DNA of 14,130 nucleotides from Candidatus Delongbacteria bacterium (lineage in GTDB: Bacteria > UBA4055), in NCBI GenBank assembly GCA_016937995.1, contig JAFGVM010000062.1:1-14130 (forward strand), written 5' to 3'. The notes beneath the pieces were generated by a model. The model was not told the DNA's origin. It saw only the letters and a program-made list of their open reading frames with translations, and made no database searches. How positions within the stretch are numbered: position 1 is the stretch's first letter; every line of letters starts with the position of its first letter. Positions 9 to 14,130 of the stretch are shown piece by piece. The position numbers and the translations under genes are program-made.

Positions 9-92
9 CCCATAACATTGGCAAAACATCAATGGGTTACTTGGATATTTGACTCGCTTAACACCACTGCTTTTTGCCATGACCGTTGTGGG
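9..92 (+). repeat. Hairpin element, copy 1 (attC-like module boundary)
   Basis: Imperfect palindrome of 84 nt. The outer arm CCCATAAC (9-16) pairs with GTTGTGGG (85-92), with one T-G wobble. A 2-nt bulge (AT, 17-18) faces a 5-nt bulge (TGACC, 80-84). The inner arm TGGCAAAA (19-26) pairs with TTTTGCCA (72-79). The central loop (27-71) differs completely from copies 2 and 3, while the arms and bulges are conserved. Flanks ACACAT (2-7) and ATGTGT (95-100) extend the palindrome. The layout of two box pairs separated by an asymmetric spacer recalls integron attC sites, but the outer box does not fit GTTRRRY exactly and no integrase is present. It could instead be a MITE or REP-like repeat. Confidence 0.75.
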
Positions 93-130
93 CAATGTGT
101 AATTTGGAAAAACTGATAATACCGGCATAT
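93..130 (+). repeat. Left terminal inverted repeat of block A
   Basis: This 38-nt stretch directly right of hairpin 1 recurs inverted directly left of hairpin 2 (3959-3998). TGTGTAATTT (96-105) matches AAATTACACA at 3985-3994, and the 15-mer ATAATACCGGCATAT (116-130) matches its reverse complement at 3959-3973. The 10-12 nt between the two conserved pieces is diverged. The pair brackets about 3.8 kb of leftward genes. Confidence 0.7.
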
Positions 131-175
131 TAAACAGAATAATTAGAAATATAGTCAAATGTAAATTTTATACAT

Positions 176-685
176 TTATTTTTTTTCTACAATAAGTTTC
201 TTGTGCTTATATACAATTCTGATAAATTCTTTTAATTCTTCTGATTGAGAATCTTTAAAGAATTTCTCTATACTCTTATTGGGTAAATAGATATAAGCTT
301 TTGCAAAATCTAACTCATATAAACTAATCCCATCTAAAATGAATTTAAATCTTAGATCTACATCATCGGTTTTCTCAAATCCTTTTTTATAGTACTTATT
401 CAGATAAAACATTTCTATCTCGGATTGAGCTATTTCTTTTAATTGCTCAAACATATCTGAATATGTATTCTTAAAGATAATCTTTAAATCTTCATCACAA
501 TTGAACTTAGTTTTTTTCAAAATAGAGAATTTGTTATCTCTATCTGAATTTGCGATCATTATTTCTCCACTCAATCCTTTTAATTCTTTTGAATCATACT
601 TGCCTTTAACAGATAAAAATACGAATACCGTATTGAACAACGATTTGTGATAAAGAATCCTGTATTGGTCTCTTTTATTTGCCAT
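176..685 (-). CDS. Hypothetical 169-aa protein, last gene of block A operon
   Basis: I do not recognise this protein. It is a soluble-looking, lysine- and aromatic-rich polypeptide with no signal peptide, membrane segment or obvious catalytic motif. The middle (about residues 60-100) is predicted helical and charged. The ATG (683-685) overlaps the last 11 nt of the upstream amidase continuation frame. It is preceded at good spacing by GAGG (692-695 on the complement), so translational coupling to the upstream gene is likely. It lies last in a leftward operon and is more AT-rich than the block B envelope genes. Its stop codon sits within a 7-bp AT-only inverted repeat (157-177). A role linked to the amidase is only suggested by position. 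Confidence 0.7.
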   Translation of the reverse strand: MANKRDQYRILYHKSLFNTVFVFLSVKGKYDSKELKGLSGEIMIANSDRDNKFSILKKTKFNCDEDLKIIFKNTYSDMFEQLKEIAQSEIEMFYLNKYYKKGFEKTDDVDLRFKFILDGISLYELDFAKAYIYLPNKSIEKFFKDSQSEELKEFIRIVYKHKKLIVEKK

Positions 686-1832
686 TTACTACCTCACTTT
701 TTTTAATTATTTCTTTCGAACTATTTATGCCTACGACATAATAGAATTTTTTATTTTGTGTTATTGTTGATGTCCAAGTCGTGTCATTAAAGCTACCACT
801 TGTATCCAATGTGAAATTATTGTACGGGTCATCTGAAGAATATACCTGATAACTATCTGCTCCAGTCACAGAGTTCCAAACCAGTGTAGTACTCTCAGCT
901 AAATGTTCAATTGAAATTATATTGGGTGCAGACATGTCATCCGATAATATTATAGGATTTCCCGTACTTACAACCTCAGGCTCAAATCCATACAAAATTG
1001 CATTTGCTTTATTATCAAGTATAATTTCGGCATTCCCTTCATATCCAGTTGATGTCTGCATTGCTTTTATATGTAAAGTATTCCCACTTGTCCAGCTTGT
1101 TACGAAATTCCCAAGATTTGCGATTATTACCATTTTTCCGTCAATAATTTCAAGCTTTGAATCTGAATTCGAATCTTTCGATTGAATCTCATCGGGTCTG
1201 CTCTTTATATAGACATCAAATTCTATATCATTTGTATCAATCAGTTCTGTACTGTCATTCGCCTGTAAATGACATATGACTTTTCTAGGAGTATTCAAAG
1301 CTGAAACACTTGATTTTACTTTCTGTAGCTGTTCTTTCTGTTTTGAGTAAATATTATTATCAGGTGGCCACATTTGATCCTGATCAACATTCACCATATA
1401 GGCATTTGCAACATAGGTATTGTAAACATTATTCCATGATGTACTGTAATCCGAAATATCAAATGATTGGTTTGTTGAATTCCATGTAATTACAGAATCA
1501 CATCCTTGAATACTATCCCCTATTATTTCAGTTGTTGAAAAGTGCGGTTTATTGAATGGCAGCATAACAAGATTCATTCCTGTTTTCAGGCTAAATACAG
1601 CTTGTTCTTCGATATAACCCAATGAAACAAATGAAAAAGAACTATCAGCATTTATAAGATAAGGTTTACTTTCGTCTATATAGAAATTGTCAATATTTCC
1701 AATTTCTGTTAGTGAACTTGTTACCCATATTTTCTCTATATTATCCCAGTAACTTACAGATTCTATCTCTGAATATTTACTAATTAAATCACCTGCCTGT
1801 GTTAAATCTTCGCCTGAACATAAATTTACTGC
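675..1832 (-). pseudogene. In-frame C-terminal continuation of the amidase gene, beyond a TAA stop
   Basis: Reading on from the amidase stop (complement of 1833-1835) in the same frame gives 385 sense codons before the next stop at 675-677. The first 70 codons (1623-1832) have no start with a ribosome site. The longest annotatable ORF here (675-1622) would need a TTG start without a Shine-Dalgarno. The stop falls inside a domain: GINWLAVPS before it and GMNLVMLPF about 85 residues later begin two tandem copies of one roughly 75-residue module, each with a later SV.xW and P/AY.xN pattern. A second Fn3-like domain follows (about 1.0-0.69 kb), with YQVYSSDDP mirroring YNLYSSDNP in the upstream half. 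Most likely this is the 3' part of a gene with a nonsense mutation; a sequencing error or stop readthrough would also fit. Confidence 0.75.
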
Positions 1833-2780
1833 TTAAGAAGGTACAGCTAGCCAATTTATTCCTTCCAAACAATCATATTTAATTATAGTAACTATATCGC
1901 TATAAGTTGTGTCTGCATTAACAATTTCTTGGAGTTTATAAAATTTTCTTGAGGAGGTTACGGATGTACTCCAATTTGTATTGGAACCACTATATTCAAG
2001 AGTCCAGCTACTAAAATCCTGTTCGGGATTATCTGAACTATATAAATTATAGGATGAAGATTTGGCTACACTTGAATAATCGAAATGAAAATCTACATTA
2101 CTTCCATTTTCCTCAGGGCTTAAAGAAGTTTTTCGTACAGTTGAATAATTATTGTCGAAGAACTTTGTCAATCCGTTATTTATATAAGTGGCTACCTGTT
2201 GCGAACCGATAATTCCTCCTCCGAAAACCATCTGATTCCATCCGTCAATTTCACTTATATAATATGGCTCTACTAAACATACTGGTATATTTTTACTAGG
2301 ATCGACAGAGTTCAATACCTCTAAACCTCCTCTCTGACTTATTCCGAAATTAGTAAACCCAATTTTCAATAACTCATGATGTATTGCATATGCTAAACTA
2401 TAACTAATCCACGGTCGGTAATAAATTGTTTTAGTTCCCTGAACCCATGCCCAACTGTTGCTATTAAAATGAATACTAACTGCTGCATCTGGCTCATATG
2501 TATTAATCATTATAGCTCTGTCTCCGTTATCAACATGAGCATCAGTAGTTCTAGTCATTATTACAGTAGCAAGTAAGCTGAGTAAATTAGTTCGTAGCGT
2601 TAAGCCTACCTGTAAATTGATATCTGCTTCATCTGGGTATTCTGTTCCATTTCTACCTAATGCACCTCGGTTTCCAGGTCCTCCATGTCCAGGGTCTATC
2701 AGAATTGTCTGAAACATAACACCCTGAGAAAAAATCAACCCAGTAACAAAAAATACGAGTATGAAAATATAATTCTTCAT
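1833..2780 (-). CDS. Secreted N-acetylmuramoyl-L-alanine amidase (Amidase_3), C-terminally interrupted
   Basis: This is a zinc amidase predicted to cleave the MurNAc-L-Ala bond of peptidoglycan in the periplasm or outside the cell. A signal peptide occupies residues 1-19 (hydrophobic core, then FSQG). The Amidase_3 fold spans about 24-205 and keeps all key residues: H32 in DPGHGG, E51 in DEADINL and H104 in SIHFN as zinc ligands, and E171 in CLVEP as the catalytic glutamate. TRTTD (76-80) is also typical. An Fn3-like domain follows (about 220-300). The protein ends at LAVPS, in the middle of a repeated C-terminal module that continues in frame after the stop. The catalytic part should be intact, but the wall- or surface-binding tail is lost unless the stop is read through. 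GGGAG at good spacing supports the ATG. It starts 20 bp after the propeller lipoprotein gene, so they are co-transcribed. Confidence 0.9.
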   Translation of the reverse strand: MKNYIFILVFFVTGLIFSQGVMFQTILIDPGHGGPGNRGALGRNGTEYPDEADINLQVGLTLRTNLLSLLATVIMTRTTDAHVDNGDRAIMINTYEPDAAVSIHFNSNSWAWVQGTKTIYYRPWISYSLAYAIHHELLKIGFTNFGISQRGGLEVLNSVDPSKNIPVCLVEPYYISEIDGWNQMVFGGGIIGSQQVATYINNGLTKFFDNNYSTVRKTSLSPEENGSNVDFHFDYSSVAKSSSYNLYSSDNPEQDFSSWTLEYSGSNTNWSTSVTSSRKFYKLQEIVNADTTYSDIVTIIKYDCLEGINWLAVPS

Positions 2781-2799
2781 TTTACTGCTCCCATTACTT

Positions 2800-3780
2800 T
2801 CATAACTTAATCAAATAAATATTCCCGTCATTCATTTCGTAGTACAAAATCATTTTATTATTTGGTGACAGAGTTGGTGAGTATTCAAGTTTGTCACTTG
2901 TATTTGTTATCTGCTTGAACTTTTTTGAATTAATATCAAATATTGCTATATCGTAGTTTTCAATACTATAATGATTATCTTCTTCCAAACAGAAAATAAT
3001 TTTAGTATCATCAAAGCTCCAAGTTGGATTACTACAACTTAATTTCTCATCAAATGGGTGTTTATATTCGCTTTTAATTTTTTTCTCAATATCCCAAAAA
3101 CATATTTGATTATAATCTTTGAAAACAATATTATTTTTATTGTATGAAATTTTCGCTGTTACTAGGCTTAATTTAATTTCATCACGAATTTCTCCATTCT
3201 CATCAATATATTTATCTCCATCAGGTGTTAGTGATACAACAATTCGGTTTTTTTCTTTATTATTCAGTAAATGTGAGTATTCACTATTAATTGGTAATAT
3301 TTTTGATTCGTATTTATAGTTTTTTCTATCAAAAGCTGCAATATACTGCCCCGTTTCAGAATACATCCAAATTGGACTTGTTAACCAATCAGATTGAAAA
3401 AGTCTTTCAATTGAATAATCTTCAATATTTATGACTGAAATTGATGAAGTCTTTATTCCTTCAATTCTATCTCTAGCAAGAAAAGCAATGTATTTACTGT
3501 CTACAGACCATGTAACAGAATTATAAGTTGTTGCAATATTTAAATTACCAATTTTCTTAAATGCTTTGCCTTTCATATCAGATATATAGATAGAGCCATT
3601 TCTTATATACGAGATATATTTACCGTCAGGTGAAAATTTTGGATGTTGGTATGGGTTTTCTTGCGTTCCATCTTTTGTTAATTGGATACTGCTATATTTT
3701 TTAGTATTTACCCCACAACCAGTTATAATTATGCTGATAATTATTGCAAACAGATATAATTTTTTTAAAATTCTAAGCAT
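2800..3780 (-). CDS. PD40/TolB-like beta-propeller lipoprotein
   Basis: This is a predicted envelope lipoprotein of 326 residues. The N-terminus has a hydrophobic signal ending in a lipobox, IITGC, with C22 as the lipidated cysteine. The rest reads as a series of WD40-like PD40 blades with the hallmark (P/V)xWSxDxxxIxF: PKFSPDGKYISYI, VTWSVDSKYIAFL, PTWSFDDTKIIF and PTLSPNNKMILYY. This arrangement resembles the propeller of TolB and related proteins, but the TolB N-terminal domain is absent and the protein is shorter, so it is not TolB itself. Propellers of this kind bind protein or carbohydrate partners; the partner is not evident. It is the first gene of a leftward operon with the amidase, and AAGGGG lies only 2 nt before the ATG. 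A sigma70-like promoter lies 46 bp upstream. Confidence 0.85.
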   Translation of the reverse strand: MLRILKKLYLFAIIISIIITGCGVNTKKYSSIQLTKDGTQENPYQHPKFSPDGKYISYIRNGSIYISDMKGKAFKKIGNLNIATTYNSVTWSVDSKYIAFLARDRIEGIKTSSISVINIEDYSIERLFQSDWLTSPIWMYSETGQYIAAFDRKNYKYESKILPINSEYSHLLNNKEKNRIVVSLTPDGDKYIDENGEIRDEIKLSLVTAKISYNKNNIVFKDYNQICFWDIEKKIKSEYKHPFDEKLSCSNPTWSFDDTKIIFCLEEDNHYSIENYDIAIFDINSKKFKQITNTSDKLEYSPTLSPNNKMILYYEMNDGNIYLIKL

Positions 3781-3825
3781 AGCCCCTTTTTTATTGCTTC
3801 TTTATCATGAAAATTACAATAAAAC

Positions 3826-3854
3826 AATATACTGAATATTTTCTTTTTAGTCAA
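3826..3854 (-). promoter_or_regulatory. Sigma70-like promoter of the block A operon
   Basis: On the minus strand a -35 box TTGACT (complement of 3849-3854) is followed after exactly 17 nt by a -10 box TATATT (complement of 3826-3831). Transcription would begin near 3819, giving a leader of about 40 nt before the propeller lipoprotein ATG. No comparable promoter fits in the 20-bp gap before the amidase, so the three leftward genes probably share this one. The remainder of the 3781-4262 intergenic region holds the block ends and hairpin 2; I see no gene in it. Confidence 0.6.
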
Positions 3855-3958
3855 TATTTCAAAAATAAATAATTATATGATTTGACCTGTATTCTTTGCT
3901 TGAATAAAGGAACAGAATTTCATATTATTAGGTATGTTATCGATTAATATAAAAATAG

Positions 3959-3998
3959 ATATGCCGGTATTATGAGAAACAGAGAAATTACACACAGA
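3959..3998 (+). repeat. Right terminal inverted repeat of block A
   Basis: This is the inverted partner of 93-130. ATATGCCGGTATTAT (3959-3973) and AAATTACACA (3985-3994) are exact reverse complements of the left-end segments, with nearly the same spacing, and the repeat abuts hairpin copy 2. Together they bracket the leftward operon. Confidence 0.7.
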
Positions 3999-4070
3999 CC
4001 CACAACATGGGAAAAATGACACGGCGAGGGGAATGTTATTTGCCGCTCTTTTTTCCCTATCCGTTGTGGG
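3999..4070 (+). repeat. Hairpin element, copy 2, joining blocks A and B
   Basis: This 72-nt imperfect palindrome differs from copy 3 at about five positions. The outer arm CCCACAAC (3999-4006) pairs perfectly with GTTGTGGG (4063-4070). The 2-nt AT bulge faces a 5-nt bulge (TATCC, 4058-4062). The inner arm GGGAAAAA (4009-4016) pairs with TTTTTCCC (4050-4057). The G-C pair at its base replaces the T-A pair of copies 1 and 3, a compensatory change. A further CGGC/GCCG stem (4022-4025 with 4042-4045) caps it. Unlike copies 1 and 3, its outer flanks do not pair, because a type-A end lies left and a type-B end right. It sits between divergent promoters, so a simple terminator role is unlikely. Confidence 0.8.
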
Positions 4071-4107
4071 AAATAGTAATCAGGAATTCTTGTGGGGGGG
4101 GGGAGTC
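4071..4107 (+). repeat. Left terminal inverted repeat of block B, with G10 tract
   Basis: TAGTAATCAG (4074-4083) and a run of ten G followed by AGTC (4094-4107) recur inverted, at nearly the same spacing, at 13960-13991. The first 23 nt are also repeated directly after hairpin 3 (14068-14090, one mismatch), so hairpin plus end forms a direct repeat of about 95 nt lying 9997 bp apart. The G10 tract is exceptional in this AT-rich sequence and could vary in length by slippage. Confidence 0.7.
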
Positions 4108-4156
4108 ATCTAGAAAAATATGGGATTAATGGTAAATAGAAACATAATAATTTCGT

Positions 4157-4184
4157 TTGAAAAGGTTAAATTAGGGATTATCTT
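4157..4184 (+). promoter_or_regulatory. Possible promoter of the envelope operon
   Basis: TTGAAA (4157-4162) is followed after 16 nt by TATCTT (4179-4184), a mediocre sigma70-like pair about 80 nt upstream of the LPP20/FlgT-like gene. It is the best candidate I see between the G10 tract and the gene, but the match is weak. The leader would carry GGAG at 4255-4258. Confidence 0.3.
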
Positions 4185-4265
4185 TCTGCAATAGGTCAAT
4201 TCGAAATAAAAATGAGTTTTTATGGAGTTTAGATCAGGTTTTAAATTAAAATATGGAGTTGTGTG

Positions 4266-5108
4266 ATGAATCGTATTTTATACTTGTTTGTTCTTGTTTG
4301 TTTCACTTTTGGTTATTCAAAAACAATCTACGGTGAATATACTTACACCTACGGAGATGACGAAACTCTGACGACCGCAAAGCAAAAATGCCAAACTTTA
4401 GCCAAAAGAGACGCCGTCGAAAAATTCGCAACTTATATCACAAGTGAAACTGTCATCAGAAATTATCAGACGGAAAGCGACGAAATAATAGCTAACACAG
4501 AAGCTATGATAACAGATGTAAAAACTGTCGAAGAACGAATAGACAAGTCAAATACCACCATTTATTACAAAGTAAGCGCGGAAGTTGACGAAGAAAAGAT
4601 CCTCGCGGTGTATAATGAAAGAGAGCGTATAAGGCTCGAGAAGATCGAAGCAGAAAGAAAACTGCAGGCAGACAAACTCGAAGCTGAAAGGAAAGCAGAA
4701 GCCGCCAGAATAGAAGCCGAGAGAAAGGCGCAGGAATTAAAACTTAAAGCCGAAAAGGAAGCTCTGGAAGCCAAACTAAAACATGAAAAAGAAATGGCTT
4801 CAATAGAACAGGAAACTGAAAAACTTAAACTTTCGCGAGAAATAAATGAGAAGGACAGAAGATTCTGGAAAACTCAAAAATGGATTGCGCTCGGAGCATT
4901 TGCAGGATCAGCAGCCCTCGGTACCTATTTCAATTTTCAGGGCTCGTCAAATTACGACGACTATAAATCTGCAACAACGACAGCATCGGCGGATGACCTT
5001 TATGATAAAGCTGAAAGCAATTATCTTTACCGGGATGTAACATTCAGCGTATCCGTTCTACCGCTCGGATATTTTTTCTACGCATGGTATAAAGAAAGTC
5101 AGTATTAA
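4266..5108 (+). CDS. Exported LPP20/FlgT-N-like protein with coiled coil and membrane segment
   Basis: I chose ATG 4266 (280 aa) over the in-frame GTG one codon earlier because GGAG (4255-4258) is better spaced to it. Residues 1-19 form a signal peptide. Residues about 20-115 resemble the LPP20/FlgT N-terminal fold: a conserved AKxxCxxLAKRDAVEKFATYI helix, a V.xRN segment, then a strand ending YYKVSAEVD. A long, highly charged Ala/Glu/Lys coiled coil follows (about 115-200; repeated EAERKAEAARIEAERK type units, TolA-like). A hydrophobic segment comes next (about 203-222), then SSNYDDYKSA...ADDLYDKAE and a second hydrophobic stretch near the C-terminus. It is probably anchored in the envelope with the coiled coil spanning the periplasm. 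The next gene starts 18 bp downstream, so the two form an operon. The function of the pair is unknown. Confidence 0.75.
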   Translation: MNRILYLFVLVCFTFGYSKTIYGEYTYTYGDDETLTTAKQKCQTLAKRDAVEKFATYITSETVIRNYQTESDEIIANTEAMITDVKTVEERIDKSNTTIYYKVSAEVDEEKILAVYNERERIRLEKIEAERKLQADKLEAERKAEAARIEAERKAQELKLKAEKEALEAKLKHEKEMASIEQETEKLKLSREINEKDRRFWKTQKWIALGAFAGSAALGTYFNFQGSSNYDDYKSATTTASADDLYDKAESNYLYRDVTFSVSVLPLGYFFYAWYKESQY

Positions 5109-5126
5109 AAGGAAAGGAAAAGTAAA

Positions 5127-8100
5127 ATGAAAAAATTCTTAGGACTAATAACAATAATAACAGCATTCATAATAATCTGGGCATGCTCAGACCTTGAACA
5201 TTCTAATCCATTTGATTCAAGCTACGGCGATCCGGCTCAGTTAACAAAGCTTGACCTTACGATAGAAAAAATAGACCGCATAAAGCTCGTCTGGGATGAT
5301 GATTACTACAGCAAAGATTCAAATTACACTTTCCAGATCGACAGAAAAGTCGGCGAATCCGGCACATGGCAGGAAAAGTATAAAATATTCAAAAGCAATA
5401 CTACTTTTTTCACAGACTCGGCAGCAGGCATTAATCAGATGAATTACTACAGAGTAAAAGTGGCTTACGATGAAAATATATCAGAACCGATTGAGGCCGG
5501 AGTGAACAACCCGTTTAATCCGCCGTCAAATATTATAACAAATCGCAAAGACATTCGTACGATTCAGATAAGTTGGGCTGACAATTCAAACGGAGAAGAT
5601 GGCTTCAGGATAGACAGATTTTCTGCAGGTGTCTGGCATGACGGATTTAAGACTGTAGGTCAGAACATAGCATCATGGACTGATTCTTCAGCCGTTCTTA
5701 ACGACAGCATCAGATATAGAGTATGCGGATTTAGAAAAACTTATTCATCTCTTTCAGTCGCAACCCAACTGATAGATAATTTAGTTCCGGCGCCTTCTAA
5801 TCTTACAATAAAGCAGAACGATGTCAGCACTTTTGAATTGAACTGGGCAGACAACAGCATAGGCGAAGAAGGCTTTATCATTCAGAGGAGCATTGACGGA
5901 GGCGCATACAGTCAGATAGCGTCTTTACAGGCTAATACAACTACCTATACAGATAATTCGGTCAGCAAGAACAAAAGCCTGAGCGATGTCAGCTACAGAG
6001 TTATGTCTTTTTATGGTACATATCAATCCGATTATGCTGAAACGGCATCAGAAATTGATTTTCCAGCACCGGGTTCGATATCGTATGAAAAACTTTCAAT
6101 TTCATCTATAAAGCTGAACTGGTCGGATAACAGCCTTGCAGAAACAGGTTTCAAGATCGAAAAGAAGATCGGGGCCGGCAGCTGGGCTGAGTATGCGACC
6201 GTCGGGGCGAACATAACGACTTGGACTGATACGGCAGCCGAGATAAATCAGAATCTGCAGTACAGGATCTATGGCTATAAAGGAACGAATACATCTCCGG
6301 TAACTGAAAGCTCTGTGATAGATAATGCTTTTCCTGCTCCGTCATCTATAACATATACGAAGATCTCCATTTCTTCGTTAAAAATTGACTGGCTCGACAA
6401 TTCAGTCGGTGAAGACGGCTTTAAGATAGACAGATCTGTTGACGGTACATGGACTACTGCTTATGCAACCGTTGCAGGCAATATAAAAACTTATACAGAC
6501 AGCAACGCTCCGATCAATAAAACCGTTATTTACCGTGTTTACGCATACAAATCATCAAGTGTGTCGGCTTCTGTTTCCACTTTGTCGATAAACAATACTT
6601 TTCCGGCACCTACAAATCCTATTATAACACAGCTTGCTGTCAATTCAGTAAAAATTGACTGGACAGATAATTCTACAGGCGAAGACGGGTTTAAGATTGA
6701 TAAAAAGAGCACTACAGGTGTCTGGACTACGGCTTTTGCTTCTGTCGGTGCGAGTATCACAACTTATACAGATACCGCAGCTGCAATCTCAGACAGCCTG
6801 CAATACAGAATTTACGGTTATAAAGGAACAACATATTCAACTTACGCTTATACAAGCGCATCCGACCTTACATTTCCGCCGCCGACAAATGTAACAGACA
6901 GCAGCGTGAGCATTATTTCAATAAAATTGAACTGGGCTGATAACAGCACAGGCGAAACAGGTTTTAAAATTGACAGGTCGGTTGACGGTGGTGCGTGGGG
7001 AATCGCCTATGGTACAGTCGGCGAGAATGTCGTTACATGGACTGATGCCAACGCTCCGATAAATAAAAATATTCAGTACAGAATTTACGGTTATACTGCA
7101 ACTGACGCATCAAGCTATGCTTACTCAAATACGATCGCCAATACTTTTCCGGCTCCGGTTCTAAATACTGTTACTCAACAAACAGTAAGCTCTTTCAAGC
7201 TTGACTGGTCGGACAATTCAACCGGCGAGGAAGGATTCAAAATCGAGAGAAAAATTGATGATGGTACTTATGCTCAGATAGCTTCTGTCGGGGCGAATGT
7301 AATTACATATACCGACAGCTCGATTAATAAAAAAGGCTACACTACTGTTTACTACAGGATTAGAGCGTTCAAAGGAACTGATTATTCAGTTTACAGTGAA
7401 AAGACGCAGTTAATTTCTTTTCCTGCACCGACGAATATAAATTATACAAAAACAAGCATCAGTTCTATAACCGTAACTTGGGCTGACAATTCAAACGGCG
7501 AAGACGGTTTCAAGATAGATAAAAAAGTAGGATCTTCTGAATGGATATTAACCTACGGTACCGCATCTGCAAATGCAGTATCTTGGCTTGATTCAAATGC
7601 TGAGCCGAACACATCAATTCAATATAGAGTATATGCCTACAAAGGCAGCAACTCATCAACTGCAAACTACAGCGCAACAATTGACAATACATTCCCTGCT
7701 CCGCTGAATATTTCAACCGAAAAGCTGACAATATCGTCTATCAAGGTCAATTGGACAGACAATTCAACAGGCGAAACAGGCTTCATAGTTGACAGAAAAA
7801 TAGGCGTTGACAGCTGGGCAGCTTACGATACAACCGCGGCAAACGCAGTAACATGGACTGACAATAACGCAGTTATAAATGTAAATTTACAATACAGGAT
7901 CAAAGGTTATAAAGACAGCTACTATTCTAATTATCTTGAATCATCTCAGATAAGCAATATCTTCCCGGCTCCCACTAACCTTACACTGACTCAGGTAAAA
8001 TCCAAAACAAAAGCCACTTCAATAAAACTGGACTGGACTGATAATTCCAATGGAGAAGACGGGTTCAAAATCTCAAAAAAAGACGAAGTAGGCAACTGGA

Positions 8101-9863
8101 ATGATCTTTATACTGTCGGAAGCAACATAAAAACATGGACTGATACGAACGCAACGATAAGCGATAGCCTTGCTTACCGAGTAAAAGGATATAAAGGAAC
8201 ATACTCATCCGGTTACACAACAGCCGATGTAAGCGCTCTAACCTTTCCGCCGCCATCGAATCTCACCTTCACGAAAATAGACTTGAACTCGATAAGGCTA
8301 AATTGGACTGATAACTCAACCGGCGAAGACGGCTTCAAAATTGACAAAAAAATCGGTGACGCAGCTTGGACAGTAGCTTATGGAACAGTAGCTGTAAACG
8401 CAGTAACTTGGACAGACGACAATGCAGATGTAAACCAAAATCTGCAATATAGAGTTTATAGCTATTCAGGACCATTCGTATCCAATTTTGTAGAAACAAC
8501 TCTAATTGACAATACTTTCCCTGCTCCGACAAACCTAACAACAACTCAAGCTAGCATAACTACGGCAACAATCGCATGGACTGACAACAGCACCGGAGAA
8601 GAAAAATTCGAGATCGAAAGAAAATTATCAGCCGATGCAACATATCTAAAAGTAGGCGAAGTGATCGGCAGTGCCACGACGACAAAAACATATTCAGATA
8701 CTACCGTCGTTCCAACAAATACATACGATTACAGAGTAAAAGGAGTATTAGGAACAAATTCATCAGCTTACATAACGAAAACAGGATATGAAAACATTTT
8801 CCCAGCTCCTACGAATCTCGCAGCTACTGTCGAATCCGAAACCTCAATAAAACTCGCTTGGACTGACAATTCTATAGGAGAAGAAGGTTTTAAAATTGAC
8901 AGAAAAGTCGGCAGTGCAGGCACATGGACGACTGATTATGCAACAGTAGGATCAAATGAAATTGAATTTACTGACACTGGGCTCACAGCAGGAATAATAT
9001 ATTATTACAAAGTAAGAGGGTACTGTATTTCAACTTACAGCTATTATACTAACGAAGCGACCAAATTTATTCCTGATATGTCAGGATTTGTTTTAATACC
9101 TATTGGTAATTTTAATATGGGTCAATCGGGGATTGCTAGCGCTGAACCTGAACATATTGTAAATATTACAAAAGAATATTATTTATCCAAGACCGAATTA
9201 ACTCAAAAAGAATGGGCTGATATTATGGGTACTAATCCAGCGAGTGGTTATGGTATTGGTGATAATTTCCCAGTCTATTCAGTCAGCTGGTATTCGGCAC
9301 TTGTATATTGCAATAAAAGAAGCATCGCTGATGGGCTTTCACCATGTTATAGTATTAGTGGATCAACTGATCCAGCAACTTGGGGTTCAATTCCCGCTAG
9401 CTGGAATACAACTTGGAACGCTGTTGTTTGTGATTTCGATGCTAAAGGATATCGTATCCCTACTGAAGCGGAATGGGAATATGCTGCACAGCACAATGAT
9501 AACAGAACATTCCCATGGGGAGAAACTGAGCCTACAAACAGTTACTGCAATTTTAGTAATTATGTCGGAGAAACTACTATTGTTGGTAATTATCCAAGTG
9601 GAAATAATAGCCTTGGCCTTTCCGACATGGCAGGAAATGTAGAAGAATGGGTGTGGGATTGGTATAACTATCCGTACCCAAGCTCAGAACAAATTGATCC
9701 AACAGGACCAGTCGAACCGATAGTTGAACAAGAAGTTAAAATCGCACGTGGCGGAAATTGGGGTGCGAGCCCAAGCCTTGTTGTCAAATGCGCACAAAGA
9801 AGAACGCTTGATCCTTTCTTTGCATCAATAGACACGGGACTGAGAATTGCGAGGACGAAATAA
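5127..9863 (+). CDS. Giant lipoprotein: 14 Fn3-like repeats plus FGE/SUMF1 domain
   Basis: This 1578-residue protein has a lipoprotein signal (IIWAC, C20) followed by SNPFDSSYG. Residues about 37-1313 are 14 Fn3-like repeats of roughly 91 residues. Most start FPAPTN or a variant and carry (L/I)xWxDNS.GE(D/E)GFKI and YR(V/I)xGYKG. The C-terminus (about 1316-1578) is an FGE-sulfatase (SUMF1) domain: FVLIPIGNFNMG, RIPTEAEWEYAA, FPWGE, MAGNVEEWVWDW, ARGGNW and TGLRIAR. Compared with human FGE from memory, C1555 matches Cys341, but Ser1550 sits where Cys336 should be. Classical formylglycine-forming activity is therefore doubtful; a structural or ligand-binding role, as in many bacterial SUMF1 proteins, is likelier. 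AAGGAAAGG precedes the ATG. The repeat array probably projects the SUMF1 head from the outer membrane; this is inference. Confidence 0.9.
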   Translation: MKKFLGLITIITAFIIIWACSDLEHSNPFDSSYGDPAQLTKLDLTIEKIDRIKLVWDDDYYSKDSNYTFQIDRKVGESGTWQEKYKIFKSNTTFFTDSAAGINQMNYYRVKVAYDENISEPIEAGVNNPFNPPSNIITNRKDIRTIQISWADNSNGEDGFRIDRFSAGVWHDGFKTVGQNIASWTDSSAVLNDSIRYRVCGFRKTYSSLSVATQLIDNLVPAPSNLTIKQNDVSTFELNWADNSIGEEGFIIQRSIDGGAYSQIASLQANTTTYTDNSVSKNKSLSDVSYRVMSFYGTYQSDYAETASEIDFPAPGSISYEKLSISSIKLNWSDNSLAETGFKIEKKIGAGSWAEYATVGANITTWTDTAAEINQNLQYRIYGYKGTNTSPVTESSVIDNAFPAPSSITYTKISISSLKIDWLDNSVGEDGFKIDRSVDGTWTTAYATVAGNIKTYTDSNAPINKTVIYRVYAYKSSSVSASVSTLSINNTFPAPTNPIITQLAVNSVKIDWTDNSTGEDGFKIDKKSTTGVWTTAFASVGASITTYTDTAAAISDSLQYRIYGYKGTTYSTYAYTSASDLTFPPPTNVTDSSVSIISIKLNWADNSTGETGFKIDRSVDGGAWGIAYGTVGENVVTWTDANAPINKNIQYRIYGYTATDASSYAYSNTIANTFPAPVLNTVTQQTVSSFKLDWSDNSTGEEGFKIERKIDDGTYAQIASVGANVITYTDSSINKKGYTTVYYRIRAFKGTDYSVYSEKTQLISFPAPTNINYTKTSISSITVTWADNSNGEDGFKIDKKVGSSEWILTYGTASANAVSWLDSNAEPNTSIQYRVYAYKGSNSSTANYSATIDNTFPAPLNISTEKLTISSIKVNWTDNSTGETGFIVDRKIGVDSWAAYDTTAANAVTWTDNNAVINVNLQYRIKGYKDSYYSNYLESSQISNIFPAPTNLTLTQVKSKTKATSIKLDWTDNSNGEDGFKISKKDEVGNWNDLYTVGSNIKTWTDTNATISDSLAYRVKGYKGTYSSGYTTADVSALTFPPPSNLTFTKIDLNSIRLNWTDNSTGEDGFKIDKKIGDAAWTVAYGTVAVNAVTWTDDNADVNQNLQYRVYSYSGPFVSNFVETTLIDNTFPAPTNLTTTQASITTATIAWTDNSTGEEKFEIERKLSADATYLKVGEVIGSATTTKTYSDTTVVPTNTYDYRVKGVLGTNSSAYITKTGYENIFPAPTNLAATVESETSIKLAWTDNSIGEEGFKIDRKVGSAGTWTTDYATVGSNEIEFTDTGLTAGIIYYYKVRGYCISTYSYYTNEATKFIPDMSGFVLIPIGNFNMGQSGIASAEPEHIVNITKEYYLSKTELTQKEWADIMGTNPASGYGIGDNFPVYSVSWYSALVYCNKRSIADGLSPCYSISGSTDPATWGSIPASWNTTWNAVVCDFDAKGYRIPTEAEWEYAAQHNDNRTFPWGETEPTNSYCNFSNYVGETTIVGNYPSGNNSLGLSDMAGNVEEWVWDWYNYPYPSSEQIDPTGPVEPIVEQEVKIARGGNWGASPSLVVKCAQRRTLDPFFASIDTGLRIARTK
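5236..9066 (+). repeat. Array of 14 tandem Fn3-coding repeats (about 274 bp each)
   Basis: Tandem, diverged repeats lie inside the giant lipoprotein gene with a period close to 274 bp. Each has a short conserved core coding for DNS(T/N)GEDGFKI and a linker coding for FPAPTN. The first (before 5510) and last units are the most diverged; the middle ones (about 6060-8530) are most alike. Unit 11 (near 7970-8240) carries a short insert (KSKTKAT) before the core. Such arrays change length by recombination and are prone to misassembly. Confidence 0.85.
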
Positions 9864-9909
9864 TACATAGAAGATAAATAATTTCTGTAAATTAAATTAT
9901 AAGGAATAT

Positions 9910-10803
9910 ATGGAATTTCCTAAAAGAGTCGAACAACATATAACTGAAACCAGCAGTTTCAAAATATTCAATAGTGCGATCCCTAATTCTTGGATTGTAA
10001 GAGAAATTTCTGAAAGAGATTATGGTATTGATTGCTATATTGAATTAGTTGATTCAAACAATCAAGTTACTGGAGAATTAATTTCAATTCAATTAAAAGG
10101 GATGCAATCAATTACTTGGACTAAGGAAAACTATTATACTCTATCGGGAATTAAGCTTTCGACAACAAATTACTGGCGATTTTTTCCAATACCAGTGTTT
10201 ATTTGTTTAGTTGATCTAAACTCTAAAGAAATATTTTTTAATGCTGCTAAGGAATCGATCAGAAGAGATTTTTTAACATATTCAAACCAAGATGTTTTTT
10301 CTTATAAAATTGAGAAAAAGTGCAAATTATCAATAAGTAATATTCCCAATTTCATACACTCATACTATAAGGAAAAACTTCATAATGAGCTACAAATAAA
10401 TATCATAACATTTATTTCTCATTATCACAAATATCGCAATTTTATTGAAGAGAATATCGGGAACGATTGTTTCATGGGGATCGAAAAAAGTAGGTTGTTT
10501 TATATGAAACACTTATATAATAATACAGAATTTCTTTGTAAATATTTTCAAATTCCGTGGGATCTCAAATGCTTTGATGAATATATTAAAATCAGTCAAT
10601 CAAGGTATGGCAATAATTATTGTTTATATGAAGAACAATTCGAAGAAATATCTTTAAAATTAAATGAATTATTAGCTCCTGTAATTCTAAGAATTAAAAA
10701 TCATATAACGGTAGAGGAAAAAGAATATTGGGCAAAAAATGATTTTGATTTATATAATTATTTGTTCTTAGTTAAGTCAAACGGAGAAATAGATGCATGG
10801 TAA
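9910..10803 (+). CDS. DUF4365-like protein, putative PD-(D/E)xK nuclease fold
   Basis: The 297-residue protein opens with a DUF4365-like domain (about 1-150): SERDYGIDCYIELVD, then TGELISIQLKG. D41, E45/E56 and the QLK motif (Q61, K63) fit the degenerate PD-(D/E)xK active site proposed for this family, whose members often occur as accessory or defence-linked putative nucleases. The C-terminal half (about 150-297) is helical, rich in aromatic and charged residues, and I do not recognise it. There is no signal peptide, so it acts in the cytoplasm. AAGG lies 5 nt before ATG 9910. The gene starts 46 bp after the giant lipoprotein gene but is far more AT-rich, suggesting a different origin. DNA cleavage is an inference; no substrate is evident. 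Confidence 0.75.
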   Translation: MEFPKRVEQHITETSSFKIFNSAIPNSWIVREISERDYGIDCYIELVDSNNQVTGELISIQLKGMQSITWTKENYYTLSGIKLSTTNYWRFFPIPVFICLVDLNSKEIFFNAAKESIRRDFLTYSNQDVFSYKIEKKCKLSISNIPNFIHSYYKEKLHNELQINIITFISHYHKYRNFIEENIGNDCFMGIEKSRLFYMKHLYNNTEFLCKYFQIPWDLKCFDEYIKISQSRYGNNYCLYEEQFEEISLKLNELLAPVILRIKNHITVEEKEYWAKNDFDLYNYLFLVKSNGEIDAW

Positions 10804-10831
10804 CTGATAAAAAGATTTTTTTAGAATGATT

Positions 10832-10840
10832 TGCTATAAT
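10832..10840 (+). promoter_or_regulatory. Extended -10 promoter before the second nuclease-like gene
   Basis: TGCTATAAT (10832-10840) is a perfect extended -10 element (TGnTATAAT) 45 nt before ATG 10886. No strong -35 box lies 17 nt upstream, which is normal for this promoter type. It implies that the second nuclease-like gene can be expressed separately from the DUF4365 gene. Confidence 0.5.
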
Positions 10841-10885
10841 ATGATATTCTACCAATATTCCATAATAGTATAAGGAAGGAGTAAT

Positions 10886-11896
10886 ATGAATGATGTTGAA
10901 AAATTGGTAGCTTTCAATAATGTTAGAAGTTACTTGAATCAAGAAGACCAAAAATATTTATTATCAAAGCTTTCTATCGATCAGACTAATTTAACTCATC
11001 GACTTAGGGGGCTTAATGTACAAAATGAATTCTTCACAATCCAACATTTGCTTGGATCTTGTAATGATATTCTTTCGTTTGATGAAAGTACTTCTGTCTT
11101 GACTAAATCATATTCGCCTGATTCTTGTTTGGTTCTCAAAAACAATCAGAAAATGTTTGTTGAAATTAAGAGCAAAGATGAATTTGAATTTAAAATAAGT
11201 GGAGGGAATCTTCAAAAACGAATTGATTTTGCAAATAATTTTGGGTATAAGCTTTATTTTGCTGTTAAACTTAAAAGTTTTTGGGGGCTATATTCGAGCG
11301 AATATTTGAAATCAAAGAACGGTAAATTAAAATTTCCAGAGGACTATTTAAATTCTGAATTTGAAACAATGTTTGGTAGCAAATTAATAATATTACCAAA
11401 AGGTATTAAAGTTAAAAGTTTTTACTCTAAAACAGAAGATAGTTTAATGCAAATTAGGCACGAAAATTTTGGCAATCTTTACAAGTATCAATTTTTTTTC
11501 AATGACAATTTAATCTTTGATATAAATAAATCTAATGAAAATGAAGCAGCCATTAGTATAATTTTAGAAGCTCTACACAATGAAATGTCAAATCAATCAC
11601 AAAACATCGAAGATTTGGGCAATGGAGAGACCTTAATAACTGAAATGTTAACGGACAATACTTTTTTCTACGATTATAGTTTTCTGTTAGCTCCCATAAA
11701 TCACGCTCAATCTGATTTGGGATTTATTATGGACAATACATCTTTTTTTAAATATATCGTTCAACAAAAAGGAAAGTCACCTGTAACGAAAGATTCACTT
11801 TATAGGATATTGGATTTTTTGCATAAAAAAGGCATAACGATAATTATATCTAAATTAATCGAACAAAAAGGGGACTTTGTTGAAAAAATATTATAA
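10886..11896 (+). CDS. Putative PD-(D/E)xK nuclease-like protein, 336 aa
   Basis: I do not recognise the family, but residues 45-130 show the order of a PD-(D/E)xK nuclease core: E48 in a helix (VQNEFFTIQHLL), P78-D79 (SYSPDS), then E93-I94-K95 (MFVEIKSK) on the following strand. A helix (NLQKRIDFANNF) and strand (KLYFAVKL) come next. The spacing is right for a restriction- or resolvase-like core. The C-terminal 200 residues are unassigned, mixed then helical, with a possible winged-helix-like end (VTKDSLYRILDFLHKKGITIII). A strong GGAAGGAG site lies just before the ATG. Base composition is as AT-rich as the DUF4365 gene, 82 bp upstream. Two nuclease-like genes side by side suggest a restriction or defence function, but this is inference. 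Confidence 0.65.
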   Translation: MNDVEKLVAFNNVRSYLNQEDQKYLLSKLSIDQTNLTHRLRGLNVQNEFFTIQHLLGSCNDILSFDESTSVLTKSYSPDSCLVLKNNQKMFVEIKSKDEFEFKISGGNLQKRIDFANNFGYKLYFAVKLKSFWGLYSSEYLKSKNGKLKFPEDYLNSEFETMFGSKLIILPKGIKVKSFYSKTEDSLMQIRHENFGNLYKYQFFFNDNLIFDINKSNENEAAISIILEALHNEMSNQSQNIEDLGNGETLITEMLTDNTFFYDYSFLLAPINHAQSDLGFIMDNTSFFKYIVQQKGKSPVTKDSLYRILDFLHKKGITIIISKLIEQKGDFVEKIL

Positions 11897-12052
11897 ATAC
11901 AAAGTATTTCTTCCATAAAATAGATATCATTTCACTCAATTTAAATTAATTTTGAAATACATGAAAAAAACAAACTCAATAATCCTTTTCAAACAGAAAC
12001 TCAAAACAGAGGCGTACGAAAAAATCGTACATCTGAATATTACAAAGTATTT
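11895..12052 (+). promoter_or_regulatory. Three small palindromes in the gap before the AlbA_2 gene
   Basis: The 215-bp gap between 11896 and 12112 holds three small dyads. AAATAC-AAA-GTATTT (11895-11909) overlaps the stop of the upstream gene. GTACGA-A5-TCGTAC lies at 12014-12030. A second copy of TACAAAGTATTT lies at 12041-12052, an exact 12-bp repeat of 11898-11909. They could be operator sites for the downstream regulator-like protein. The first might also act as a weak terminator, but its stem is short and AT-only. I see no convincing promoter or small gene in the gap. Confidence 0.3.
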
Positions 12053-12111
12053 TTATATGAACAAAATTTAAGTATTCAAATAGAATTAGAAAACTAACAT
12101 CGGAATTTATT

Positions 12112-13761
12112 ATGCCAGATCAGAATTTGCACGAATTATTGACCGACCTCATCCAAACATGGGAAAACGAGGTTATTGAGTTTAAGGAAGTGAATGATAA
12201 CTTTCCGACTTCGGATATCGGGAAGTATTTTTCCGCTTTATCGAATGAAGCGAACTTGAGAGATAAAGAGCATGCTTGGCTTGTATTCGGCGTTAATAAT
12301 AAAATGAGGAAAATTGTCGGTACTGATTACAGAAATGAGGCTGACAGACTTCAAAGCTTGAAAATGCAGATCTCACAGAATACTGAACCGAGTATTACAT
12401 TTAGAAATATTCACGAAGTGACTGTTGAAGGTCACAGAGTGGTTTTATTAGAAATTCCTTCCGCACCGGTTGGTATTCCTATCTCTTGGAACGGACATTA
12501 CTATTCCCGTTCAGGTGAAAGTTTGGTTTCTCTCGGATTAGACAAGCTTGATGAGATCAGGAATCAGACTTCGGCATCTGACTGGACGGCTAAAGTTATT
12601 GATGAAGCTACGCTTGAGCATCTTGATCCGGAAGCGATTGAAAAAGCACGGGAGGCTTATGCGAAAAAGTATTCGAACCGTTTTACTGATTCCGAGATTA
12701 AAAAATGGTCTGTTCCCGTTTTTCTCGACAGAGCAAGATTAACTTTATCCGGTAAGATCACGAGAAGCACTTTAATACTTCTCGGTAAAAAAGAATCCTC
12801 TCATTTACTTCTACCTTATCCTGCTCAGATTACTTGGAAGCTCGTGGATAAAGTCAAAGCTTATGAACATTTCGCACCGCCTTTTTTATTGAGTACTTCT
12901 GAGCTTTATCTGAAGATAAGAAACTATCAGATCAGAATTCTGCCGGAAAATAGCCTAATTCCCGTAGAAGTTTCAAAATATGACAGAAAAGTCGTCCTCG
13001 AAGCTCTTCATAACTGCATCGCGCATCAGGATTATACAAAGAATGCCCGAATCCTTGTAACTGAGCATCAGGATAAGTTAACATTTGAGAACGACGGCGG
13101 ATTCTATGAGGGTAGTCCGGATGATTACATAACAGGCGATAAAACACCTCGCCATTACCGCAATTCATTTCTCGCTCAAGCTATGTCAGAACTGAATATG
13201 ATAGACACAATGGGATACGGTATTCACCAAATGAACACTGTTCAGGCGAAAAGATATTTCCCTTTACCCGATTACGATCTTTCAGAAAAAGGTGTTGTTA
13301 AATTAACCATTCACGGCAAAGTATTTGATCCGGAATACAGTAAACTGCTCATACAGAATCAGGATCTTTCTTTAGAGGATATTATTGCTTTGGACAGAGT
13401 ACAGAAACTGCTTCCTTTGACTGATGAAATGATTAAAAGGTTGAGAAAGGCACAGCTTATTGAAGGCAGAAAGCCGAATTTTCACATATCGTTGAAAGTA
13501 GCTACGGTGGCAGACAGAAAAGCTGAATATATAAAAACTAAAGGTTTTGATGACGCTTATTGTAAAGACCTGATCCTTGAGTACATAAGAAAGTGGGGAG
13601 AAATATCACGCAAACAGGCAGAGGATTTACTTTGGGATAAGCTACCTGACATACTTGATGACAAAGCTAAATTCGTTAAGGTTACAAACCTGTTGCAAAG
13701 CCTAAAAAAAGAAGGTAAGATAGTATTGGGTAAAGCAAAAAAATGGAAATTGAATTTATGA
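12112..13761 (+). CDS. Schlafen AlbA_2 / COG2865 ATP-binding regulator-like protein
   Basis: The 549-residue protein has the layout of COG2865 (AlbA_2 plus GHKL-like ATPase plus winged helix). An N-terminal Schlafen AlbA_2 nucleic-acid-binding domain spans about 12-150 (ENEVIEFKE, then WLVFGVNN, then YYSRSGES). A linker and middle domain run to about 290. The GHKL-type ATP-binding part includes EALHNCIAHQDY (about 297-308), LTFENDGGF (about 323-331) and RNSFLAQAM plus MGYGIHQM (about 349-375). Charged, winged-helix-like sequence fills the C-terminal 120 residues. Family members are annotated as transcriptional regulators and are common in accessory and defence regions; the exact role is unknown. 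The protein is cytoplasmic. GGAA precedes the ATG (12112). Its composition is closer to the envelope operon than to the AT-rich nuclease-like genes. Confidence 0.85.
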   Translation: MPDQNLHELLTDLIQTWENEVIEFKEVNDNFPTSDIGKYFSALSNEANLRDKEHAWLVFGVNNKMRKIVGTDYRNEADRLQSLKMQISQNTEPSITFRNIHEVTVEGHRVVLLEIPSAPVGIPISWNGHYYSRSGESLVSLGLDKLDEIRNQTSASDWTAKVIDEATLEHLDPEAIEKAREAYAKKYSNRFTDSEIKKWSVPVFLDRARLTLSGKITRSTLILLGKKESSHLLLPYPAQITWKLVDKVKAYEHFAPPFLLSTSELYLKIRNYQIRILPENSLIPVEVSKYDRKVVLEALHNCIAHQDYTKNARILVTEHQDKLTFENDGGFYEGSPDDYITGDKTPRHYRNSFLAQAMSELNMIDTMGYGIHQMNTVQAKRYFPLPDYDLSEKGVVKLTIHGKVFDPEYSKLLIQNQDLSLEDIIALDRVQKLLPLTDEMIKRLRKAQLIEGRKPNFHISLKVATVADRKAEYIKTKGFDDAYCKDLILEYIRKWGEISRKQAEDLLWDKLPDILDDKAKFVKVTNLLQSLKKEGKIVLGKAKKWKLNL

Positions 13762-13842
13762 GAACTTATGAGAACTCTTATGCGTACTACTTCACATTTT
13801 GTAGCTAAAAATTATGAGAACTTTATGAGAACTTATGAGAAG
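13756..13842 (+). repeat. Clustered decamer TTATGAGAAC repeats at the AlbA_2 gene 3' end
   Basis: The 10-mer TTATGAGAAC occurs at 13756-13765, 13766-13775, 13812-13821 and 13823-13832, with a one-mismatch fifth copy at 13833-13842. The first overlaps the TGA stop of the AlbA_2 gene (ATGA, 13758-13761). Because the period is 10, successive copies shift reading frame, encoding MRT then YEN in turn. Slippage here would move the C-terminal frame of the regulator or of the small downstream ORF. Confidence 0.7.
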
Positions 13843-13956
13843 TATGAAAGAATCGTACAACTGCAGAAAGATAATCCCAAAATAAAACTCGAACCATTGG
13901 AGCGCGAATTAAATAAAGCTAAAAAGTGTATAAAGTACTCGGAGATAAGTAAATGA
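13768..13956 (+). CDS. Small ORF (62 aa) after the AlbA_2 gene, doubtful
   Basis: This is a charged polypeptide starting MRTLMRTTSH, with YENFMRTYEKYERIV encoded by the decamer repeats, then a lysine/glutamate-rich helical tail (LERELNKAKKCIK). It starts 6 nt after the AlbA_2 stop, without a clear Shine-Dalgarno, so it would rely on translational coupling. It may be a real short protein, or the frameshifted remnant of a longer AlbA_2 protein tail produced by slippage in the decamer repeats. Its end lies directly before the block B right end. Confidence 0.35.
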   Translation: MRTLMRTTSHFVAKNYENFMRTYEKYERIVQLQKDNPKIKLEPLERELNKAKKCIKYSEISK

Positions 13957-13959
13957 GAA

Positions 13960-13995
13960 GACTCCCCCCCCCATATAGTGACTGATTACTACTAT
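13960..13995 (+). repeat. Right terminal inverted repeat of block B, with C9 tract
   Basis: GACT followed by nine C (13960-13972) and CTGATTACTA (13982-13991) are the reverse complement of the G10-AGTC tract and TAGTAATCAG at 4074-4107, with almost the same internal spacing. It abuts hairpin copy 3. The pair brackets about 9.85 kb containing all the rightward genes. Confidence 0.7.
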
Positions 13996-14067
13996 CCCAC
14001 AACATTGGAAAAATGACACGGCGAGGGGAATGTTATTTGCCGCGCTTTTTTCCATGACCGTTGTGGG
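13996..14067 (+). repeat. Hairpin element, copy 3 (end of block B)
   Basis: This 72-nt palindrome is nearly identical to copy 2. CCCACAAC (13996-14003) pairs with GTTGTGGG (14060-14067). An AT bulge faces TGACC (14055-14059). TGGAAAAA (14006-14013) pairs with TTTTTCCA (14047-14054). A CGGC/GCCG stem lies inside. Flanks CTGATTACTA and TAGTAATCAG pair with each other and lengthen the outer stem. It could also end rightward transcription from block B, having a stable stem, but no T-run follows. Confidence 0.8.
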
Positions 14068-14090
14068 AAATAGTAATCAGTAATTCTTGT
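14068..14090 (+). repeat. Start of a third block: type-B left end
   Basis: These 23 nt match 4071-4093 with one mismatch (TAGTAATCAG then AATTCTTGT), directly after hairpin 3 as in block B, but they are followed by a short GGG rather than a G10 tract. They indicate that another block with a type-B end begins here. Nothing further is recognisable to the end of the window. Confidence 0.55.
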
Positions 14091-14130
14091 AGGGTTTATT
14101 GAGCTTTCTTTATAATTCTGCCACCGGCGG

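Follow-up and report, generated by a model that had tools for sequence, protein, structure and literature searches.

Contig C7 of a Candidatus Delongbacteria genome (2.75 Mb in 99 contigs, 97% completeness) carries three similar hairpins, all in the same orientation, with two large blocks of genes between them, which raises the question of whether these hairpins are the boundaries of mobile cassettes and which enzyme would handle them. The window, meaning the whole stretch of DNA analysed, is this entire contig of 14,130 bases. The reading favoured here, at a probability of roughly 0.8, is that the window belongs to an integron-like cassette array, includes two complete cassettes of it, and is served, independently of canonical IntI, by a tyrosine recombinase of a type named X, a sister of the integron integrase IntI. 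Arrays of this kind extend across a bacterial phylum about which little is known, and their driver is probably a recombinase without the part thought to be essential for integrons.

The arm shared by the hairpins, CCCAYAAC, occurs seven times in the window against 0.34 expected, a count reached by none of 200 shuffles, and six of the seven copies are paired arms, located at 9-16/85-92, 3999-4006/4063-4070 and 13996-14003/14060-14067. Genome-wide, the pattern CCCAYAAC-N40-70-GTTRTGGG matches these three hairpins only, and the reversed control pattern matches nothing. By predicted fold and covariance model matches, three attC-like sites are placed on the forward strand: site 1 (9-92), closing the cassette that precedes the window, with the GTT at 85 opening cassette 1; site 2 (3999-4070), where cassette 1 ends and cassette 2 starts; and site 3 (13996-14067), at the end of cassette 2 and the start of the next one. 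Both ends of the contig are occupied by hairpins. In all three predicted folds, an asymmetric bulge of 2 nt against 5 nt has an identical orientation, and the inner stems are TGGC/GCCA (site 1), GGGA/TCCC (site 2) and TGGA/TCCA (site 3). As regards the extrahelical bases of the integron L stem, the predicted folds have the asymmetric 2/5 bulge and no bulged base in the inner stem. The three co-oriented hairpins with their shared arm and bulge are real, with positions and folds as the preliminary description of this sequence had them. A plain DNA similarity search within the genome recovered only copies 2 and 3, so that a covariance model was required, and an Rfam search of the window gave no match.

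The key test of the cassette reading is that the start of a cassette should pair with its own end and not with that of its neighbour, and it was scored on the flanks beyond the 8-nt box. Cassette 1 (86-4063, forward strand, 3978 bp, with a putative cut at G^TT) starts with GTTGTGGG-CAA-TGTGTAATTT...CTGATAATACCGGCATAT and ends with ATATGCCGGTATTATGAG...AAATTACACA-CAGA-CCCACAAC. Its private outer stem pairs the start arm TGTGTAATTT at 96-105 with the end arm AAATTACACA at 3985-3994, and the distal arm CTGATAATACCGGCATAT at 113-130 is 94% complementary to its partner at 3959-3976, all on the forward strand. Cassette 2 (4064-14060, forward strand, 9997 bp), delimited like cassette 1 by own-end complementarity and the circular fold, starts with GTTGTGGG-AAA-TAGTAATCAG...GGGGGGGGGGAGTC and ends with GACTCCCCCCCCC...CTGATTACTA-CTAT-CCCACAAC. 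Here, on the same strand, the start arm TAGTAATCAG at 4074-4083 pairs with the end arm CTGATTACTA at 13982-13991, followed in the circular fold by the distal arms GGGGGGGGGGAGTC at 4094-4107 and GACTCCCCCCCCC at 13960-13972. The own flanks scored 12.5 for block 1 and 16.5 for block 2, compared to 5.0 and 5.5 with swapped partners; random pairs from the window had a mean of 6.0, reaching 12.5 and 16.5 in 62 and 3 of 39694 cases, respectively. Likewise, predicted DNA folding gave -40.1 kcal/mol for cassette 1 as a circle versus -21.2 kcal/mol in the array, and -43.2 versus -28.3 kcal/mol for cassette 2.

The same pattern is seen among 50 cassettes of the family, where the complementarity to the own end beyond the box was 12.2 versus 6.3 for mismatched ends, and 5000 permutations never exceeded 7.62. 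The own end was the best partner in 30 of these cassettes. The flanks on either side of a single site, coming as they do from adjacent cassettes, scored at background (6.4). In folding, the own circle averaged -24.3 kcal/mol versus -12.3 kcal/mol for the arrayed form, the circle being lower in 49 of the 50, and within the box, own pairs matched at 3.88 of the five variable positions versus 2.11 for other pairs. When 19 class 1 integron cassettes were treated in the same way, the 8-nt box pairing was kept and no outer stem was found (own 5.74, other 5.50), although one of them, blaGES-6, pairs over 13 nt. Because class 1 cassettes show none in the same test, the outer stem is a distinguishing feature of the new system. 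This own-end complementarity, absent from the preliminary description, is the strongest feature of the locus and is decisive for the cassette reading; it also means that cassette boundaries can be found from sequence alone, requiring neither an integrase nor an attC model.

Regarding the distribution of the sites, a first covariance model, built from the three window copies and searched against 13 genomes of the same family, found sites in 12 of them, with up to 43 in one metagenome-assembled genome. A second model (R2), built from 67 sites, gave 120 matches in co-oriented arrays over 81 loci; among 373 genomes from other families, it had no match at E<=0.01, and viral contigs had no match to the core site pattern. 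Among the 120 sites, the inner stem is 95.9% paired and five of its eight pairs show changes on both sides, so the covariation of the inner arm, proposed from three copies, grows in the larger alignment. Over the entire structure, 157 cells are changed on both sides, a count that 500 shuffles, with a mean of 76.8, never reached. Shifting the partner by a single column lowers the pairing from 87% to 43-44%. RNAalifold returned no pairs for the 120-row alignment, probably due to unequal loops and N-masked sites, and the named structure was counted instead. In the boxes, only GTTR and YAAC are conserved, position 5 being mostly T and position 7 mixed, in agreement with the departure of the outer box from GTTRRRY already noted for the window. 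The outcomes that the preliminary description held to count against it were copies at random sites unrelated to block boundaries and a lack of covariation in a larger alignment; neither occurred, as the copies stand in co-oriented arrays and the covariation is stronger with more sequences.

The 50 cassettes, measured between consecutive co-oriented sites, span 179-9997 bp with a median of about 1.3 kb, and an undetected degenerate site could inflate a few of these lengths. Cassette 2 of the window is the longest of them. The two window blocks appear to be single cassettes, because the R2 model has no match inside either; they are large, as first described, but with this family median such cassettes are the tail and not the rule. 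Of the 120 sites, 30 are no more than 250 nt from the end of a contig, against 7.6 expected; such an excess would follow if the arrays varied from cell to cell. In addition, the cassette at 4815-5971 of locus L095 is 91% identical over its whole length to one in a different genus, the alignment having one end within 10 nt of the cassette boundary and the other where that contig stops. Exact core-site matches were also seen at L056 and L057, in metagenome-assembled genomes labelled Bacilli and Spirochaetales, which are either misbinned contigs or cross-phylum cassette transfer.

The preliminary description stated that no integrase is present, which is true of contig C7 and not of the genome, as a recombinase sister to IntI is encoded elsewhere in it. 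Against the integron integrase model, whose cut-off is 265 bits, these IntI relatives (X) reach 214 bits, with the match gapped at the position of the insert; against recomb_XerA_Arch (cut-off 220), their closest NCBIfam model, they reach 217.7 bits. When aligned with IntI1, the IntI-specific insert of about 42 residues is absent from X. In the tree, X and IntI group together in one clade (100/100) that excludes the XerC/D encoded by these genomes, and IntI is a single group (100/99). On contig C16, the stop codon of X is followed on its 3' side by CGCCATATGGCG palindromes, then GCAC^GTTAGCTG, a cassette and an attC, and the start of this first cassette pairs with its own end, the left flank of the attC (GTTAGCTGAAATACCACACA/GTTAGCTGCAAGTACCACACA). 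Palindromes followed by a GTTR cassette start are found at six X loci of the family (C16, G003:C51, G002:C23, C110, C76 and G001:C146), while contig G006:C80 terminates exactly at CGCACGTT. Many X genes are at or near contig ends with their 3' end facing outward. One X relative, at 9319-10437 of L088, has 372 amino acids and an extra N-terminal domain of about 95 amino acids, and its contig ends 60 nt past the stop codon, too early for an attI to be visible. Taken with the family covariance model and the test of own starts against own ends, these platform junctions support the attC-like, structure-conserved boundaries of cassette-like blocks that had been proposed for the window.

Outside the family, relatives of X (E<=1e-50) were found in 17 of the 373 genomes, and comparable loci with insert-less recombinases exist in other phyla. 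A double palindrome and then GTT lie directly 3' of X at L201, L202, L203, L204 and L216, and the complete, unrelated genome G272 has X, a double-palindrome attI and two cassettes with own-pair scores of 20 and 18, compared with a maximum of 14 among 150 random starts. The cassettes of G098 scored 23 and 15. On a Rufibacter plasmid, X is followed by seven cassettes with hairpins, whose start and end match over about 14-16 nt by eye; after the random-start control, the greedy cassette chains of Rufibacter, G065 and G338 are only suggestive. A Parabacteroides plasmid (L194, 5716-12809) carries X and then co-oriented immunity genes separated by attC-like hairpins, with ATTR/GTTR cassette starts, a layout that fits the definition of rAID (PMC12247911). 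On Acinetobacter plasmids (L174, 3632-5117), a truncated X and the ATACGCCATTTGGCGTAT palindrome precede tet(X3), which starts at GTTATGTG and whose end carries TAAC and a broken hairpin; on a Klebsiella plasmid (L192, 6744-7754), blaVEB-3 is, like tet(X3), the first gene behind X. Both are suggestive only as cassettes. The X genes ahead of them are annotated as xerD, TnpF or tyrosine recombinase, with an attI-like sequence in between. In many of the 17 genomes, the relatives of X have different neighbours, in some cases a transposase-like reading frame, so that the presence of an X-type sequence is no proof of a platform by itself; five X relatives on viral contigs had no visible attI or cassettes.

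The site architecture, the arrays, the own-end pairing, the junctions of X, attI and first cassette and the cassette common to two genera are established, and a mode of action can be proposed from them. Each block would be a cassette able to exist as a circle, in which the end site pairs with the cassette's own start to give a long single-stranded hairpin. One side of this hairpin would have the 8-bp outer box ending in AAC/GTTR, the 2/5-nt bulge and the inner AT-rich stem, and the other side a loop of 3-5 nt followed by the cassette-private outer stem of 8-15 bp. We infer that recombination takes place with folded single strands as the substrate, X acting on the sites and cutting G^TT on the folded strand. 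This XerA-like, insert-less tyrosine recombinase would then insert the circle at the attI, which bears palindromes and lies immediately 3' of the recombinase gene. Insertion would split the private stem between the two ends of the cassette and so weaken the inserted site, by which capture would be favoured over loss and the free circle may be recognized in preference to arrayed sites; recombination between adjacent folded sites would excise a cassette.

Several points weigh against this reading. Neither an empty site nor a circle nor a reaction was seen, and X is not resolved as one clade in the tree (51/52). The own-pair scores of Rufibacter, G065 and G338, at 11-14, are singly within reach of chance. 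Moreover, the insert that X lacks has been published as essential for integron recombination (PMC9668308; PMC8138268). Finally, a search for X at E<=1e-50 gave no match in half of the 12 attC-bearing genomes (G005, G007, G008, G009, G011 and G012), where something else may act in trans. Absent contigs or orphan arrays are the likely explanation for these genomes, most of whose assemblies are fragmented; orphan attC arrays are common in integrons.

An ordinary integron in the form of an orphan attC cluster, with the gene of its canonical IntI absent from the assembly or acting at a distance, is the alternative that survives best, and it is an unlikely one. True IntI above the curated cut-off is encoded in two genomes that hold the new sites too (G005:C68, 400 bits; G008:C155, 336 bits), but in none of the other 11 family genomes, including the source genome at 97% completeness. 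By inspection, the attC-like hairpin on the 5' side of these two IntI is GC-rich and of another kind (e.g., L107, about 11670-11735), and in the two IntI contigs the R2 model detects no new sites, which argues against IntI as the driver. The new sites instead adjoin X loci, with arrays extending on the 3' side of X, and the R-box consensus does not hold beyond GTTR. IntI was set aside as the driver because of its different hairpin in G005 and G008. The combination of canonical IntI and GC-rich hairpin is present at L107 (10900-11740) and L112 (1200-2570), in two Delongbacteria genera and with similar neighbouring genes, and a broken IntI copy is found in G005:C62.

The ends of the blocks are inverted repeats, as they would be in transposons or composite elements, and the genome has one Y1_Tnp gene (on C56) that could move repetitive extragenic palindromic (REP) or miniature inverted-repeat ends. 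However, the repeats are private to each block with no common family, the hairpin is placed asymmetrically, at one end per unit, the units adjoin one another in co-oriented arrays, and beside a recombinase the cassette start always falls on a fixed base, making such elements very improbable; mobilisation by TnpA/Y1 was rejected, the single Y1 gene not being linked to the sites. Still less credit is given to regulatory structures or terminators that take no part in mobility: the hairpins are stable and intergenic, with the lack of an Rfam match telling neither way, but such elements cannot place the pairing of block ends kilobases apart, the attI junctions or the two-genus cassette with its edge at a site. 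A chimeric contig, to which hairpins at both contig ends might point, is the least credible explanation, as the arrangement recurs in 12 genomes and the platform design also exists in complete plasmids and a complete genome.

Returning to the cassette array run by X, a wider reading is tentative and falls a little short of even odds: a broad class of integrons would be run by insert-less IntI sisters across several phyla, the private stem, whole only in the free circle, would mark free cassettes for insertion, and rAID would owe its gene acquisition to this class, which would also have captured tet(X3) and blaVEB-3 before their arrival on clinical plasmids. If so, the private stem could also stabilise cassettes once in the array. 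Integron surveys require the IntI-specific domain and would therefore not count platforms run by insert-less relatives, which suggests that an entire branch of gene-capture systems is being overlooked. Should X be confirmed, the integron mode of working does not depend on the insert, and IntI and X together would show the origin of integrons from Xer-like recombinases. Confirmation of X would also supply a testable mechanism for the collection of immunity genes by rAID clusters of Bacteroidales, and would hint at the place of mobilisation of tet(X3) and blaVEB-3.

As for gene content, all genes of cassette 1 are on the reverse strand, opposite to the attC direction: a gene of 169 amino acids with no family match (176-685), an Amidase_3 gene with a C-terminal region (675-2780) and a lipoprotein-like beta-propeller gene with PD40 repeats (2800-3780). 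The Amidase_3 frame of 701 codons has one in-frame stop at codon 316, due to either a pseudogene or a sequencing error. On the forward strand, cassette 2 encodes a protein of 281 amino acids with no Pfam match (4263-5108), a 1578-amino-acid fn3-repeat protein with a C-terminal FGE-sulfatase domain (5127-9863), a DUF4365 protein (9910-10803), an Hjc-like nuclease with a weak match (10886-11896) and a Schlafen AlbA_2/HATPase_c_4 protein (12112-13761). The fn3 protein, with more than 10 fibronectin III-like repeats, is giant cargo, and the FGE-sulfatase C-terminal fold is a frequent target in diversity-generating retroelements. The last three genes (9910-13761, forward strand) share the cassette and are possibly defence cargo, their PADLOC matches being weak. 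A domain search found no type VI secretion system (T6SS) immunity domains among the window genes. At 14068-14110, the cassette starting at the right edge of the window has a second end motif like GGGTTTATTGAGCT, as do the starts at L161, L160, L106 and L118; it lies about 35 nt inside the cassette boundary and marks a cassette subfamily.

Compared to known systems, the blocks differ from REP and IS200-IS605 elements in having outer repeats private to each block and a single Y1 gene that is not adjacent. XerA/Xer with dif or pdif are related through recomb_XerA_Arch, the nearest NCBIfam model of X; however, the tree gives XerC/D from these genomes a clade of their own, and the sites of the X system are long hairpins in arrays, not dif. 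In Bacteroidales, rAID has been described as a tyrosine recombinase with co-oriented short genes and conserved intergenic motifs, its mechanism of gene acquisition being left open in the published account (PMC12247911). It shares with the present system the insert-less recombinase group (47% identity for the Parabacteroides plasmid) and attC-like hairpins between co-oriented genes, and the layout of recombinase and co-oriented genes is present at the X loci and arrays of the family. The cargo of rAID is T6SS immunity genes and its boxes are ATTR/GTTR, whereas Delongbacteria cassettes carry varied genes, and those of the window are long and multigenic, with the genes of cassette 1 running the opposite way. 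In the open-access literature, no paper was found linking insert-less members to cassette arrays with private stems, which is not proof of novelty. The canonical integron of IntI has in common co-oriented arrays of folded attC-like sites, the putative G^TT cut, an attI beside the integrase, box pairing between the cassette start and its own attC R'' box, and an attI joined to the first cassette, as at the six family X loci and, with the same design, in unrelated genomes. The differences are the lack of the insert of about 42 amino acids in X, the position of the array on the 3' side of the recombinase with a palindrome-bearing attI, boxes that do not follow RYYYAAC/GTTRRRY, with only GTTR in the R box, and, relative to class 1 integrons, the private outer stem that their 19 cassettes lack. 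The system works like an integron while failing two of its defining features, the IntI insert and the full R box.

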